Assembly (NCBI RefSeq): GCF_020829495.1 | Contig: NZ_JAIVFQ010000009.1 | Span: forward strand, 1-64,000 | From: Nostoc favosum CHAB5714 | GTDB taxonomy: Bacteria; Cyanobacteriota; Cyanobacteriia; Cyanobacteriales; Nostocaceae | Reading direction: 5' to 3' | Length of the DNA: 64,000 bases | In this document: one piece after another, positions 22,771 through 61,642 of the stretch | How positions within the stretch are numbered: the first letter of the stretch is position 1 | How the letters are laid out: every line of letters begins with the position of its first letter | The notes under the pieces: generated by a model | What the model was told of the DNA's origin: nothing | The model's database searches: none | What the model saw: only the letters and a program-made list of their open reading frames with translations | Program-made: the position numbers and the translations under genes

Positions 22771-22905
22771 GGGAGTAGGGGGAGCAGGGGAGGTAGGGGG
22801 AGCAGGGGAGGCAGGGGAAGCAGGGGAAGCAGGGGGAGAAAGAATAACTAATGCCGAATTCCCAATGCCCAAAAAATAAAAAATGCCCCAGAGTATTCTC
22901 TAGGG
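22745..22905. repeat. purine-rich tandem repeats and a hairpin after lgt
   Basis: About eight GGGGGAGCAGGGGAGGCA-like units run from the lgt 3' end to 22832. At 22884-22905 GCCCCAGAG and CTCTAGGGC form a stem with one mismatch and a TATT loop, a possible terminator without a clear T-run. Confidence 0.7.
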
Positions 22906-23004
22906 CTTAACCAGGGTGCATCTACCATTACTCTCTACTAGGGAAAGAGGGTGAATCCGGAAAGATACTGAGAAAATATCAAAAAAGTTTTTTGAGGGAT
23001 TGCC

Positions 23005-52849: not shown

Positions 52850-53230
52850 TCAAAATTTATATCCTCTGGCAATCCAATAGAGCCAGTCTGCGATCGCTTC
52901 TTGAGTTTCGCTGTCAACATCAATGGCTGTTATTTCAGATAACTTTGCAGAATATACATCATCATCTTTACCATTAATGTAAGCCACTTCTACAAGCATA
53001 TCTTTTAAGCACTCATCATCTGGGGCCATTCCCAGCACTTCCACTGGTTTCTCCTCGGTAGAACCTGATTTGCGTCCCTTCTTAGTCCATTTAGCCATAA
53101 AGGGAAAATTCAGGGACTCTTCGAGGTAATAGTACCAACCCATGGCCCGGTCTTCTTTATCTTCAGCATCTACAATGATCTCTGTTTTAATGCGATGCTC
53201 TCGGTTTTCGTCGGCTTCAACACTAGGCAT
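52850..53230 (-). CDS. ccbP: CcbP-family calcium-binding protein
   Basis: The 126-residue acidic protein resembles CcbP, the cyanobacterial calcium-binding protein whose loss of Ca control affects heterocyst differentiation in Anabaena. Shared features as I remember them are IIVDAEDKEDRAMGWYYYLEESLNFPFMAKW, VEVLGMAPDDECLKDMLVEV and the C-terminal IDVDSETQEAIADWLYWIARGYKF. Clusters of Asp and Glu on the surface provide the Ca sites; there are no EF hands. It converges with the acetyltransferase gene with 3 bases between stops. The symbol is by family and not by proven orthology. Confidence 0.82.
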   Translation of the reverse strand: MPSVEADENREHRIKTEIIVDAEDKEDRAMGWYYYLEESLNFPFMAKWTKKGRKSGSTEEKPVEVLGMAPDDECLKDMLVEVAYINGKDDDVYSAKLSEITAIDVDSETQEAIADWLYWIARGYKF

Positions 53231-57126: not shown

Positions 57127-60100
57127 TCAAGGACACACACTAAGTTTTTTATTTTCTTCGGGATGAGTTATAAAGTAATCTTTGAGGCGATCGCATCCTT
57201 GATGCAGCAGTTCATCTAATCCCCGCATACGCCACACAATTGCTGTATTGTCCTCACTGGCTGTAGCCAGCAGTTTACCATCAGGGCTAAAATCTGCGCT
57301 TCTCACAGTGCCTTGATGACCCGTAAATTCTGCCACCTGTTGTCCTGATAAATTCCACAGTCTAGTTGTGTAGTTTGCTGAAGATGTAGACAGCAGCTTA
57401 CCATCCCGGCTGAAAGTTATTTGTGTGACTCTACCTTCATAAGTCTTAAATTCTTTTAACTGCTTTCCTGAATAATCCCATAACCTAACGATACCATCAT
57501 CTCCAGCTGTAGCCAGTTTCTCCTCTTTGGGGCTAAAACCGACAGTGTTAACATAGCCCCTATGACCCAGCAATGGTTTAAACCGCTTGCTATTAAGATT
57601 CCACAGCAATGCCGTCCCATTTTCTCCAACTGTAGCTAGCAGCTTGCCATCTGGACTAAATCTAGTGGTCTCAACTTTACCTTTGTGCGGAAATTGTTGC
57701 AACTTGGTTCCTTTGAGATCCCACAGTTTCGCCATGCCATCATCTCCAGCAGTAACAAGCCTATCTCCTTCGTTATTAAAATTGATACTCCGTATTGCTT
57801 GAGTATGTCCCTCGAAAGGTTTCAAAGGCTTTAACGGTTTTCCGGTGCGCGTCCAGAGCTTTATTGTGCCATCTTTTCCACCTGTAACAATTAGGTCTTC
57901 TGTTTGTTTTGGGCTAAAACGCACACTGTTGACACCGCCTTGATAGGCTTGGAATGGTTTTATCAGCTTCCCTTCAAGAGTCCAAAGCCTAATGTTATCA
58001 TCCTCTGAAGCTGTAACTAGTAAGTTGCCATCTGGGCTAAAACGCACACTGCTAACAGCTTTTTCATACCCCTTTAGTTTGATTAAGGGATTTTTGGGTT
58101 TGATTAATGATTTTCCTGGAACTGCCCAGAATCTTACCGTGCCATCATCTTTTCCAGCGGTGGCAAGAGTCTCTCCTTCGCCATTAAACCGGATGCTCAC
58201 AACACTGCCCTGATGACCCAGAAATTCTGCTTCTAGTGTTCCCTTGAAATCCTTCCATAGCCTTACTTTGCCATCGCTACCTGATGTAGCAATCAAACCA
58301 TCGTTGGGAATACGAACTGTCTCAACACCTTCCCGATGAGCCTCAAATTTTGCCAGCTCTTCTCCAGCAAGATTCCATAGCCGAACTGTACCATCATCTC
58401 CAGCAGTTGCAACTTGCTTTTTCTTGGGGTAAAACCAGACACTGTTAACACTACATTTTTTAGTATCCTTGACACTGCATTCATGACCCTTAAATGTTGC
58501 CAATTCTGCCCCCTTGATATCCCAAAGCTTTGCCAAGCCATCCTCTCCAGCCGTGGCAAATTGCTGAATATTATCAGGATTAGGATTAAGGCTTTTGATA
58601 CTTCCTTGATGGGCATCTATTGTTAAAACAGGTTCTCTATTGAAACGCCACAGTTTGACTTTGCCATCATCTCCAGTTGTTGCCAGCAGGTTGCTCTTGG
58701 GAAGAAAACGAACGTTATTGACACTACATTTATCACCATTTTTTGGTCGGTCGTATTCTTTTAACTGCTGGCCATTGACACATTTATGATGCATGGATGT
58801 TATTAAAGGAGGTGACTGCTGAGTTGTTGAGACATTCCACACTTTTACCCAACCGTTACTTGCACCTGTAGCCAGTATTGTTTGATCTTCACTAAAATCG
58901 ATACTTTTGATACTGTTATTGTGCAGTATGGGCTTTTTCAATTCCTTTCCCCGGAAATTTCGCCATGTAACCGTGCCATCTTCTCCACCGGCAACAATTA
59001 ACTCTTCTTGTTTGTGTTTCTTAAAAAAACGGATACTGTTTACACCTTTTTGGTAAGTATTGATTTGATTTGTTTGATGAATATTATCCAGAATCTTCTG
59101 CAAAGCTAGCAGTGGACTTATGGCTGGACAGTCTTGCAAACATTGACTATTCCAAAAAGCCATCTTTTTGACCTCTTGTCCGGCTTCCATTGCTGACACT
59201 AAAGTTTCGATTTCTCCAGCGCCAGACTCAAAATTTCTTAAAGCAGTGACTCCTGAGCCTTCAACCTCAGCTGTCCATCGTAGCCAAAATGCAACCATAG
59301 CTAGGATTGAGACTATTACTAAACCACTAGTCAGCCCAAATAGAGTAAGCTTGCGGCGGCGTTCTTTTTGTTTACGATCGCGATCGCGCAATGCTAAACT
59401 CTGCTGGATGAAATCTTGCTCTGCTTGGCTCAACTCATCTTGGCGCTGCTTGAGCCAATTTTCTGCCTCCGCTAGGGGGACACCTCGCAGCAATGGCCCC
59501 TCATCTTGTCCGGCATTTTCCCACTGACGCATTCTCGATCGCAATAATTCTTGCCAAGTGCGAAAAGAGCGATCGCTCTCCATCCAACCGTGCAGTCGTC
59601 CCCATTCCCGAATCAAGGTTTCATGGACAATCTCTACTGTTTCTTTACCAGCAGTTTGATCACGTCCAGTTACCACTAGCCGCGCATCAGCCAAACGCCT
59701 CACTAAATCCCAGTTACTTTCTCCCACCTCATTTTTGGTAGCTAGTCTGCGGGTGTCTTCTGTGCCTTCCCCAGGCCGCACCAGTTGGACAAATATTTGC
59801 TGTGCTTGTTGTTGCTCCTCTGGATTGAGCCTAGCAAACTCGGCTTCTGCATGGTTCGCCAACGACTTTTCTACACCACCGATGGCTTCGTAAGCAGCAT
59901 GAGTCATTTGGCGATTTTGCTGTTGTGCCCACAGTTGCGTCAAAGTAAATTCTAGTAATGGCAAATTCCCTGGTGAATCCGCCACTGCTCTGAGAATCCG
60001 CTCTGCAAGCCCCTCTTCTAACCTTACCCCTTGCTTGTTTGCAGGTCGAGCGATCGCTTGCTGCAATTCTTCTCGGTTCATCGGAGCAAGTTTTAAATCA

Positions 60101-61320
60101 GCATTCTGCAAAGCATCGGCGAAACGACGATCAGAAAGTGCATATCCCAGAAAGTCAGCTCGCAAGGTCAGCAAAAGGGTAAAATTCTGTACCAGTTTAG
60201 CCGCTTCTAATAATTGATTTAAAAATAGCTGGCGTTCTTTAACATCTGAGCAAGAAGTATAAAGTTCCTCCAATTGATCGACCACCAGTAACAGGCGGTT
60301 ATCCTCGTTCTCTGACAAAATTCGGGATAAAAAAGTATGTGCTAGTTCTCCCTCTCGCAACGCACCAGCTAATTTTCTGGCATCAATATCTTGTTGTATC
60401 TTCGTTTCATTTGGTTCACGCAGGCGTACAATTACTACTGCTAATTCATCTACAGGATGAGTTTTTGGGCGAAAAGATTCGATGAGCCAATTGCCTTGCT
60501 GGCGTAAATGCGGAATCAAACCTGCAAACACTACGCTAGATTTACCACTACCAGACGCCCCAATTACCGCTACCAATGATTGTTTTTGGACTGTATCTAC
60601 TAGTTTCTGTGTGAAAATATCCCGCCCAAAGAAAAATCTTGTATCTTCTTCCCGGAAAGGAAATAAACCGCGATAGGGACAAGAGGCAATAGCTTGCTCA
60701 CGCAACACAGACCATTCACTCACCAACACTTGTGTGGGAATCATAAACCCAACTTTAGCTTCTGGTCGGTTGATGTCTACTGCTACTGCTATTCCTGCTA
60801 TACCCTGAAGCTCACGATCCCATATAGGCGCACCACTGAAACCAGGCTCTAGTTTATAACCTGGTTGTTTCACATCCTCTACCTGCACCCAACCTTTAGC
60901 TGTGCGTCCACGTAAAACGCCAGTAGCCCAAACCCCATCTGGTTGTCCCGCTGGAAAACCCAATACTCCGAAAGGATGTCCCGCCCAATCATCAGATGTA
61001 ATTAATGGTGCGAGTAGAACTTTATCTGGAGGAGAATGTTTTAATTCCAATCCAGCAATATCTTCTACTGCCATACTAGGATTCACAGGTAGCCAGAAAA
61101 CAACCTGAGCTTGGAAGAGTTGTTTAGCTGCCACTAACGGAAAGTCCAAGGTGATTTCTGCATCTGGCATTTGGGCAGTTGTTCTAGAAAGTCCCAAGGC
61201 ATCAGCTACCACATGGGCGCAGGTGAGGATGTACTTTTGGGAAACTAAGAAACCAGCACCAATTACTTTGCCACCGTTAGAGTAAATCCTGACAATAGAT
61301 AACTCAAGGGGTGCTGCCAT
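57127..61320 (-). CDS. trypsin-like protease - STAND NTPase - WD40 giant signalling protein
   Basis: A 1397-residue protein. Residues 1-205 are a trypsin-like serine protease with an intact triad: His36 (ILTCAHVV), Asp87 (AVEDIAGLEL) and Ser162 (EPGFSGAPIW). From about 214 (CPYRGLFPF, FFGRD) comes an nSTAND1-type NTPase with Walker A GASGSGKSS (254-262) and Walker B LLLVVDQLEEL (343-353), then its helical part with EIVHETLIREW. A basic linker and one transmembrane helix (659-681) lead to 14 WD40 repeats (about 745-1370), enough for two seven-bladed propellers. The propellers would sense a ligand, the NTPase oligomerise, and the protease act. The preceding small gene overlaps its start by 17 bases. 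This fits a conflict or cell-death switch, inferred from architecture. Confidence 0.92.
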   Translation of the reverse strand: MAAPLELSIVRIYSNGGKVIGAGFLVSQKYILTCAHVVADALGLSRTTAQMPDAEITLDFPLVAAKQLFQAQVVFWLPVNPSMAVEDIAGLELKHSPPDKVLLAPLITSDDWAGHPFGVLGFPAGQPDGVWATGVLRGRTAKGWVQVEDVKQPGYKLEPGFSGAPIWDRELQGIAGIAVAVDINRPEAKVGFMIPTQVLVSEWSVLREQAIASCPYRGLFPFREEDTRFFFGRDIFTQKLVDTVQKQSLVAVIGASGSGKSSVVFAGLIPHLRQQGNWLIESFRPKTHPVDELAVVIVRLREPNETKIQQDIDARKLAGALREGELAHTFLSRILSENEDNRLLLVVDQLEELYTSCSDVKERQLFLNQLLEAAKLVQNFTLLLTLRADFLGYALSDRRFADALQNADLKLAPMNREELQQAIARPANKQGVRLEEGLAERILRAVADSPGNLPLLEFTLTQLWAQQQNRQMTHAAYEAIGGVEKSLANHAEAEFARLNPEEQQQAQQIFVQLVRPGEGTEDTRRLATKNEVGESNWDLVRRLADARLVVTGRDQTAGKETVEIVHETLIREWGRLHGWMESDRSFRTWQELLRSRMRQWENAGQDEGPLLRGVPLAEAENWLKQRQDELSQAEQDFIQQSLALRDRDRKQKERRRKLTLFGLTSGLVIVSILAMVAFWLRWTAEVEGSGVTALRNFESGAGEIETLVSAMEAGQEVKKMAFWNSQCLQDCPAISPLLALQKILDNIHQTNQINTYQKGVNSIRFFKKHKQEELIVAGGEDGTVTWRNFRGKELKKPILHNNSIKSIDFSEDQTILATGASNGWVKVWNVSTTQQSPPLITSMHHKCVNGQQLKEYDRPKNGDKCSVNNVRFLPKSNLLATTGDDGKVKLWRFNREPVLTIDAHQGSIKSLNPNPDNIQQFATAGEDGLAKLWDIKGAELATFKGHECSVKDTKKCSVNSVWFYPKKKQVATAGDDGTVRLWNLAGEELAKFEAHREGVETVRIPNDGLIATSGSDGKVRLWKDFKGTLEAEFLGHQGSVVSIRFNGEGETLATAGKDDGTVRFWAVPGKSLIKPKNPLIKLKGYEKAVSSVRFSPDGNLLVTASEDDNIRLWTLEGKLIKPFQAYQGGVNSVRFSPKQTEDLIVTGGKDGTIKLWTRTGKPLKPLKPFEGHTQAIRSINFNNEGDRLVTAGDDGMAKLWDLKGTKLQQFPHKGKVETTRFSPDGKLLATVGENGTALLWNLNSKRFKPLLGHRGYVNTVGFSPKEEKLATAGDDGIVRLWDYSGKQLKEFKTYEGRVTQITFSRDGKLLSTSSANYTTRLWNLSGQQVAEFTGHQGTVRSADFSPDGKLLATASEDNTAIVWRMRGLDELLHQGCDRLKDYFITHPEENKKLSVCP

Positions 61321-61642
61321 TTTGTGAATCTCTTTTCCACTTCAGGGTGATTTCATAGTTGACTTCACTATTACCTGAAGCTACAACCGCCCCAAGTTGA
61401 GCGCTAATCTTGATGCCAAACTTGACTTCCACTTCATCTGCCGGCTGTTTGATGCTGCCTATTTTGGTAATAATCGCATTAGCTATCGGCTTGACGGTTT
61501 CTAGGGCTGACTCGAAAGTTTGTGTAGCTTTATCAACCACTTGGTCTCGCAAACCGATGCGATCGTCGGTCTGTGCTGCTTCGTCTACTTCAACAAGAAT
61601 GGATTCGCCACTTTCAAGAGGAAATTCTACTATGCGTTTCAC
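61304..61642 (-). CDS. CU044_2847 / Trypco1-type small partner protein
   Basis: The 112-residue protein (GTG start) has MKRIVEFPLESGESILVEVDEA, a helix RDQVVDKATQTFESALETVKPIANAIITKI, then PADEVEVKFGIKISAQLGAVVASGNSEVNYEITLKW. This is the pattern of the CU044_2847 family, also called trypsin-co-occurring domain 1 (Trypco1), named because it is found beside trypsin-like conflict proteases. Its stop overlaps the start of the trypsin-STAND-WD40 gene by 17 bases, so the two are translationally coupled. It may be the protease substrate, effector or adaptor; which is not known. Confidence 0.88.
   Translation of the reverse strand: MKRIVEFPLESGESILVEVDEAAQTDDRIGLRDQVVDKATQTFESALETVKPIANAIITKIGSIKQPADEVEVKFGIKISAQLGAVVASGNSEVNYEITLKWKRDSQNGSTP

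Follow-up and report, generated by a model that had tools for sequence, protein, structure and literature searches.

The window analyzed here, a stretch of 64,000 nucleotides from Nostoc favosum CHAB5714 (contig NZ_JAIVFQ010000009.1, positions 1 to 64,000), carries two overlapping genes on its reverse strand. The upstream gene encodes a small Trypco1 protein, and the downstream gene encodes a large protein in which a trypsin domain, an nSTAND1 NTPase, a predicted transmembrane helix and a double WD40 propeller follow one another. The locus comprises the following features.

61304..61642, reverse strand: Trypco1/CU044_2847 protein of 112 amino acids (aa) with a GTG start (Pfam PF19493 and NCBIfam NF041216)
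61556..61561, reverse strand: Arg28-Ile29 in the flexible Trypco1 linker, a speculative candidate cleavage site (alignment and predicted local distance difference test [pLDDT] of a model)
61304..61320, reverse strand: gene overlap of 17 bases, suggestive of translational coupling (open reading frame [ORF] coordinates)
57127..61320, reverse strand: trypsin-nSTAND1-transmembrane-double WD40 propeller protein of 1397 aa (ORF and Pfam)
60811..61260, reverse strand: Trypsin_2 domain with His36, Asp87 and Ser162 (PF13365 and triad alignment)
59500..60678, reverse strand: nSTAND1 NTPase (PF20703), with Walker A at 60538-60561 and Walker B at 60268-60294
59281..59349, reverse strand: predicted transmembrane helix, residues ~658-680, preceded by a basic stretch (hydropathy, charge bias and kept position)
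57229..59067, reverse strand: ~14 WD40 blades in two propellers, predicted to be extracytoplasmic (Pfam, AlphaFold and structure matches)
57133..57195, reverse strand: C-terminal tail with the Cys1376/Cys1396 pair (kept in alignment A4; the pair is family-wide)

A sequence-only reading of the locus had assigned trypsin, nSTAND1, WD40 and CU044_2847 domains, a catalytic triad, both Walker motifs, a transmembrane helix, some 14 WD40 repeats and the 17-base overlap, all of which were borne out by profile searches, ORF coordinates, alignments, hydropathy and modeling, far above what chance would give. The small protein matched Trypco1 (PF19493) with an E value of 4.3e-27 (95 bits against a curated cut-off of 24.6) and the CU044_2847 profile NF041216 with an E value of 3e-22 (78.9 bits against a cut-off of 23). 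Up to E=1 it matched only Trypco1 in Pfam, with no metallo-beta-lactamase nuclease, and the position of its GTG start is constant in all 11 close loci aligned. In the large protein, residues 21-170 matched Trypsin_2 (E=4e-12), residues 215-607 matched nSTAND1 (E=2.6e-119), and WD40 (PF00400) was found in 13 scoring stretches. The His36/Asp87/Ser162 triad is complete in 81 of 81 aligned sequences, the window protein included; the scan patterns that gathered these trypsins held the His or the Ser motif, so that Asp87 is the one fully independent check. By pattern match, Walker A is present in 24 and Walker B in 23 of the 25 trypsin-nSTAND1 ORFs of a collection of loci from named organisms.

The two genes are conserved together. 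The window's order was represented by 243 genomes, 112 of which carry Trypco1, and the matches listed there for residues 1-625 of the large protein include 13 places that cover both trypsin and NTPase. In twelve of these, Trypco1 is the gene just upstream, in the same orientation; the remaining one, in G223, is a tandem duplicate that follows the first copy. In the collection from named organisms, Trypco1 lies directly upstream of the trypsin gene in 74 of 79 loci, 18 of which have the identical 17-base overlap; these 79 are the best of 349 relatives, found through an alignment of 14 trypsins picked for adjoining Trypco1 or for matching the window protein, and because the query was thus chosen partly by adjacency, the 74 of 79 should be read as an upper-end value. 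The sequence-only reading had likewise proposed a linked pair, and both the linkage and the CU044_2847 placement hold. Across 11 close loci (window included), Trypco1 and the large gene alone recur in all; three, the window among them, share the window's flanking genes and five others share different ones. The unit is therefore two genes in varied surroundings.

Variants of this arrangement were also seen. In Zarconia navalis (L057/L093), one Trypco1 gene is followed by two tandem trypsin-nSTAND1-transmembrane-WD40 genes, a duplication with a single small partner. The large gene is apparently decayed or split in Hormoscilla (L096), on a Calothrix plasmid (L098) and in Oscillatoria (L139); L060/L096 also belongs among the split or decayed copies. 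Only L098 has a plasmid-titled record among the 79 named loci. Trypco1 relatives were found on 37 of 72,556 plasmid records, with 27 from Streptomyces among the matches listed (30 of the 37), and one Nostoc plasmid copy overlaps a gene for an AAA-like protein. No natural Trypco1-trypsin fusion was seen among the best 120 of 457 matches, the match lengths being limited.

Sensors are exchanged behind one trypsin head. The head precedes nSTAND1, a transmembrane helix and WD40 repeats in the window and in Nostoc, Komarekiella, Atlanticothrix and others; nSTAND1, a helix and an FGE-sulfatase domain in L059 (scanned with Pfam) and in L063, L135 and L137 (by similarity); and nSTAND1, a helix and Reg_prop repeats in L056. 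It is also joined to TIR-AAA_35 and AAA_35 NTPases (L086, L087 and L089), to a hydrophobic segment and tetratricopeptide repeats (L099), to VMAP (L111 and L144) and to a protein kinase (L153), while 37 of the 79 trypsin ORFs are shorter than 330 aa. The trypsin domains of L056 and L059 are 88-97% identical, with different domains beyond the helix. In L090, from a Nostoc cyanobiont of Peltigera, the trypsin head and Trypco1 accompany a helix-less NB-ARC-WD40 part whose propeller region holds 19 cysteines and which lacks the paired tail, a cytosolic-looking sister design.

The segment at residues ~658-680 has a mean hydropathy of 2.36, the next best value elsewhere in the protein being 1.31, at the Walker A region. 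To place it in context, 40 nSTAND1 comparators, drawn from the best-scoring matches to the window's NTPase, were examined with 5 loci of the window's own genome (45 loci); 20 weaker matches were added later. A helix lies just after the NTPase in 43 of 44 nSTAND1 proteins of the order long enough to judge and in 39 of 39 with WD40. For Streptomyces, 40 of the listed nSTAND1 places were fetched, and 37 of 41 proteins have a helix in the scoring window, or 38 if L258 is included, with its helix slightly beyond that limit; the thresholds are arbitrary, and L249, for example, has a weak hydrophobic segment. The sequence-only reading had called this topology unusual, which is wrong: among the nSTAND1 proteins sampled, the helix is the norm. 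Lys+Arg per 15 residues average 6.5 before the helix and ~2.3 after it, with 42 of 43 proteins that have no trypsin head holding more basic residues before it than after it and the last showing a tie; of 23 trypsin-headed proteins, 22 have this excess and one the reverse. This excess predicts that the NTPase lies inside and the sensor outside. Departures from the layout are L064, a cyanobacterial trypsin-nSTAND1-WD40 protein with no helix, no tail pair and nine cysteines in its propeller part, and the Streptomyces nSTAND1-WD40 proteins L286, L288 and L289, in which two hydrophobic segments at the N terminus take the place of the linking helix and the tail lacks the cysteine pair. The latter are a natural topology switch, the three probably representing one lineage.

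If the sensor lies in an oxidizing compartment, its cysteines should be paired, and we therefore counted cysteines on either side of the helix. The cyanobacterial set held 105 complete WD40 ORFs. Among the 64 with nSTAND1 and a helix, 59 have an even number of cysteines beyond the helix, 41 of them exactly two, while 33 have an even number before it; after clustering, the count beyond the helix is even in 36 of 39 clusters at 60% and in 18 of 20 at 50%. In contrast, the count is even in only 12 of 33 WD40 ORFs lacking both an nSTAND1 match and a helix (23 NB-ARC loci fetched as controls, the rest mostly WD40 genes of the window's own genome), and cysteine density is 2.34 per 100 residues in this group against 0.47 in the nSTAND1-helix group. 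One of two ORFs with nSTAND1 and no helix is even. Fifteen further nSTAND1-helix proteins, with other domains or little WD40 beyond the helix, are even in 14 cases after the helix and in 6 before it. Streptomyces proteins behave similarly, with even counts beyond the helix in 36 of 37 (26 of 27 clusters) and before it in 20 of 37.

A C-terminal cysteine pair is present in 59 of 64 cyanobacterial and 36 of 37 Streptomyces proteins and absent from four helix-less proteins (L064 and the three from Streptomyces). This test is loose, a wider pattern matching 60 of 64 transmembrane proteins and 13 of 33 helix-less controls (those displayed via blade cysteines), and parity and density are sharper. 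After its helix, the window protein itself has eight cysteines, which fall into four near pairs (727/731, 847/865, 948/956 and 1376/1396). All eight are retained in 10 close sequences of alignment A4, the window protein included, and Cys1376 and Cys1396 are each retained in 12 of its 13 rows. Because counts are even after the helix and not before it, and the tail pair is gone where the helix is gone, the propellers are probably in an oxidizing compartment, which would be the periplasm or the thylakoid lumen. Backed in two phyla by the asymmetry of charge and the parity of cysteines, the cross-membrane topology of nSTAND1 receptors is a well-supported prediction, in agreement with the earlier proposal that propellers and NTPase lie on opposite sides of the membrane.

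An AlphaFold model of residues 640-1397, built from 13 sequences, has a mean pLDDT of 77 and 55 strands, or ~14 four-stranded blades by count; one long helix runs through the membrane segment at low confidence (pLDDT ~42-54). Its best solved match, over 619 columns, is 2ymu, which we take to be the highly repetitive WD40 double propeller from Nostoc known as the WRAP protein; Apaf-1 chains are among the 50 matches shown. Template modeling scores are low (0.36 by query, with a root mean square deviation of 20), which we ascribe to the propellers having no fixed orientation toward each other. Cyanobacterial STAND-WD40 proteins have been tied to innate immunity (Dunin-Horkawicz 2014, as cited in PMC9218822).

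Trypco1 also accompanies a second type of protease. The other Trypco1 gene of the window's genome (L068:5828-9896, contig C111) is divergent from a caspase-nSTAND1-transmembrane-WD40 gene. At places with Trypco1 and an nSTAND1 match within ~1.2 kb, 10 of 10 further heads scanned are caspases, and L073, another such place, holds a split gene with a caspase match. Caspase His and Cys motifs are present in the six sequences displayed, L303 among them. Cysteines after the helix are even in 9 of 11 caspase-nSTAND1 proteins, two of which (L237 and L068) had already been examined earlier; L302 and L068 are odd (looser hydropathy threshold). In the passages of Kaur 2020 (PMC7159879) considered here, Trypco pairs with trypsin and an alpha/beta-hydrolase pairs with caspase. 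The simplest reading of a partner common to two unrelated folds of protease is that both act on it.

A candidate site for such action lies in the Trypco1 linker, a stretch that the low-confidence model leaves disordered (pLDDT below 50 at residues 23-34) and in which position 28 is Arg in 33 and position 29 is Ile or Val in 40 of 42 aligned sequences. Of these 42 linkers, 36 contain Arg or Lys followed by Ile, Val or Leu; shuffling gives an expectation of 18.8 (standard deviation, 2.9). Arg28-Ile29 may thus be a lead on a cleavage site; a binding motif is equally possible. The AlphaFold model of Trypco1 was too weak (pLDDT 58) to serve for a fold search.

The interpretation that we favor, and hold to be somewhat probable, is that the two genes encode a membrane-spanning STAND (NLR-like) receptor whose cytosolic protease acts on Trypco1, most likely as its substrate or pro-effector. 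The propeller pair, outside the cytoplasm and stabilized by disulfides, would serve as an exchangeable sensor connected by the single helix to the cytosolic nSTAND1 switch. When an envelope or extracytoplasmic ligand binds, nSTAND1 would take up ATP and cluster, and clustering would bring the N-terminal trypsin domains together on the membrane's inner side and switch them on. The trypsins would then cut their cotranslated cognate Trypco1, perhaps at the Arg28-Ile29 linker, with cell death or dormancy as the putative outcome. The domains, the intact catalytic motifs, the linkage, the family-wide signals of topology and the exchange of sensors come from the computations, while disulfide bonds, ligand sensing, oligomerization, cleavage of Trypco1 and a role in defense are inferences.

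It is quite possible, though we would not bet on it, that the receptor is as proposed while Trypco1 is an inhibitor, chaperone or adaptor, made just before the protease so as to silence it until the receptor fires. A small upstream gene with a 17-base overlap, identical in 18 of 74 loci, suits such a role, as does the covariation of the pair: Trypco1 identity tracks that of the trypsin (r=0.93) more than that of the NTPase (r=0.74) over 253 nonindependent pairs from 23 loci. Dore 2024, in the part considered here, names Trypco1 an adapter, and the low confidence of the Trypco1 model, taken by itself, would suit a protein that acquires its fold on a partner. However, a trypsin-specific inhibitor does not explain the divergent caspase-headed neighbors (10 of 10 heads, L068 and the split L073), and the basic-aliphatic linker motif, nearly twice as frequent as on shuffling, also argues against it. 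More doubtful is a housekeeping or developmental role, in which the protein would sense envelope stress and signal by regulated proteolysis rather than act in defense; extracytoplasmic propellers would suit envelope signals, only 1 of 79 named records is plasmid titled, and the defensive role is itself a prediction, but the patchy occurrence of Trypco1 (112 of 243 genomes), the differing flanks of the 11 close loci, sensor swapping, plasmid-borne Trypco1 (37 of 72,556 records) and the split or decayed copies (L060/L096, L098 and L139) resemble conflict genes.

That the helix is a peripheral or dimerization element and the propellers are cytosolic is improbable. L064 retains the trypsin-nSTAND1-WD40 order without a helix and the helix is modeled at low confidence, yet this explanation leaves the positive-inside bias, the cysteine parity and the low cysteine density in two phyla unaccounted for, and L064 has lost the tail pair as well and carries nine propeller-part cysteines. 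Membership as a fragment of a MoxR-vWA-VMAP ternary conflict system is very improbable, even though Trypco1 was named from such systems (Kaur 2020, PMC7159879) and VMAP proteins carry this trypsin head in L111 and L144: the 11 close loci share no third gene, and the seven flanking genes scanned fall in other families. Membership in a VMAP system was rejected upon finding no VMAP-C in the window's genome, the same search being positive in a control genome (G128). MoxR and vWA genes were absent among the seven scanned neighbors and as a third gene of the 11 loci, and were not searched for genome-wide.

Several observations weigh against the favored receptor-protease interpretation. Trypco1 is absent from five of the 79 trypsin loci (L116, L124, L147, L148 and L152), and L303 is a caspase-nSTAND1 locus with no Trypco1 in its 7 kb. 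The Trypco1 model, built from 42 sequences, is of low confidence, and a PDB profile search revealed no meaningful solved relative, its matches being a designed helical bundle (E=5e-5), aligned over the helical part alone, and helical chains that scored lower. On the topology side, an odd number of cysteines follows the helix in 5 of 64 cyanobacterial and 1 of 37 Streptomyces proteins; among six WD40 proteins of mixed kind that have a hydrophobic segment and no nSTAND1 match to the query, only 2 have an even count; L249, scored as helix-less, keeps a cysteine pair further in; and the charge bias is weaker in Streptomyces (5.5 against 3.2, in 33 of 37). The existence of L064 and the three Streptomyces proteins indicates that the helix is not indispensable. 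Finally, no relative of the nSTAND1 piece was found among 77 pattern matches on viral contigs, in a scan that reached close relatives only.

PADLOC returned only weak single-domain matches: the trypsin with RT-Protease_XI (E=2e-5), PDC-M35A and LmuA; the NTPase with mad8 and mad3; the repeats with HEAT-ARM_XIII; and Trypco1 with GajA (0.007). No Avs model was among its matches up to E=1. Avs and the window protein have in common a STAND switch, an N-terminal effector and a C-terminal sensor, which is a cytosolic terminase/portal sensor in Avs and a predicted extracytoplasmic propeller here. Apaf-1 and WRAP likewise combine a STAND NTPase with a double WD40 propeller; the window protein adds a fused protease and a membrane helix, whereas Apaf-1 is cytosolic and recruits a separate caspase.

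The label "conflict system" derives from the predictions of Kaur 2020 and 2021. The VMAP ternary systems (Kaur 2020, PMC7159879) have Trypco1-trypsin pairs, whereas here the head is fused to nSTAND1, a helix and WD40 and no VMAP was found; caspase-nSTAND1 next to Trypco1, present here, is absent from the passages considered. The nSTAND1 proteins of Kaur 2021 (PMC8195603), which combine FGS sensors with effectors of the trypsin or caspase type, share with the window protein the order effector, STAND and C-terminal sensor, and FGS versions with the window's trypsin head exist (L059, L063, L135 and L137); transmembrane topology and paired cysteines, seen here, are not stated in the part of that paper considered. 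In the part of Tuck 2025 (PMC12799240) considered here, a trypsin fused to the defense protein of Hachiman and AVAST is reported to cut an upstream-encoded partner, the nuclease-protease pair to pass from one system to another, and caspases, too, to have relatives of this partner as neighbors. The AVAST, Hachiman and Lamassu pairs share with the window pair an upstream partner gene, an N-terminal trypsin on varied sensors, mobility and caspase-side relatives. Their partner is a metallo-beta-lactamase nuclease and their sensors are not described there as transmembrane, in contrast to Trypco1 and the transmembrane receptor here. Some STAND-linked lectin domains are predicted to be periplasmic (Dore 2024, in the part considered), so that sensing outside the cytoplasm by STAND proteins had already been suggested. 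All of the parts have been described before, and the pair falls within the predicted conflict systems. A family-wide transmembrane layout of nSTAND1 with paired cysteines and a Trypco1-caspase partnership were not found in the literature searched, much of it in partial text, which does not establish their absence elsewhere.

To our knowledge, characterized bacterial STAND defense proteins sense phage proteins inside the cell. We consider it possible, though rather unlikely as a whole, that nSTAND1 marks a widespread class of transmembrane NLRs with disulfide-locked, exchangeable outside sensors and that Trypco1 is a shared pro-effector freed by a trypsin or caspase head, whichever the receptor carries; this would amount to a receptor-to-zymogen cascade across a membrane, with a logic analogous to Toll-type plus apoptosome signaling. 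Were the whole family to sense outside the cytoplasm, it would be a receptor-type NLR able to detect adsorption, envelope damage or neighbors before entry. The cysteine signature offers a cheap topology test for many other proteins, and Trypco1, named in 2020 with no assigned activity, becomes testable, as it would be expected either to be cut by or to restrain the neighboring protease.

Seven genes flanking the pair were scanned and encode ThiS, ThiD2-ThiE, GT4, DUF1517, CcbP, acetyltransferase and GGDEF regulator proteins, the CcbP-type calcium-binding protein (PF11535) lying at 52850-53230 on the reverse strand. Counts of promoter-like sites (9 against 8.1 expected) and terminator-like sites (1 against 4.8 expected) were uninformative. 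Farther along the window's contig, positions 69338-101483 form a STAND-rich stretch, where NB-ARC was matched twice and where the nSTAND1-WD40 receptor L070 and a further WD40 gene also lie. At 22877-22927 of the window, on the reverse strand, a match to nitrogen stress-induced RNA 1 (NsiR1) scored above the Rfam threshold.

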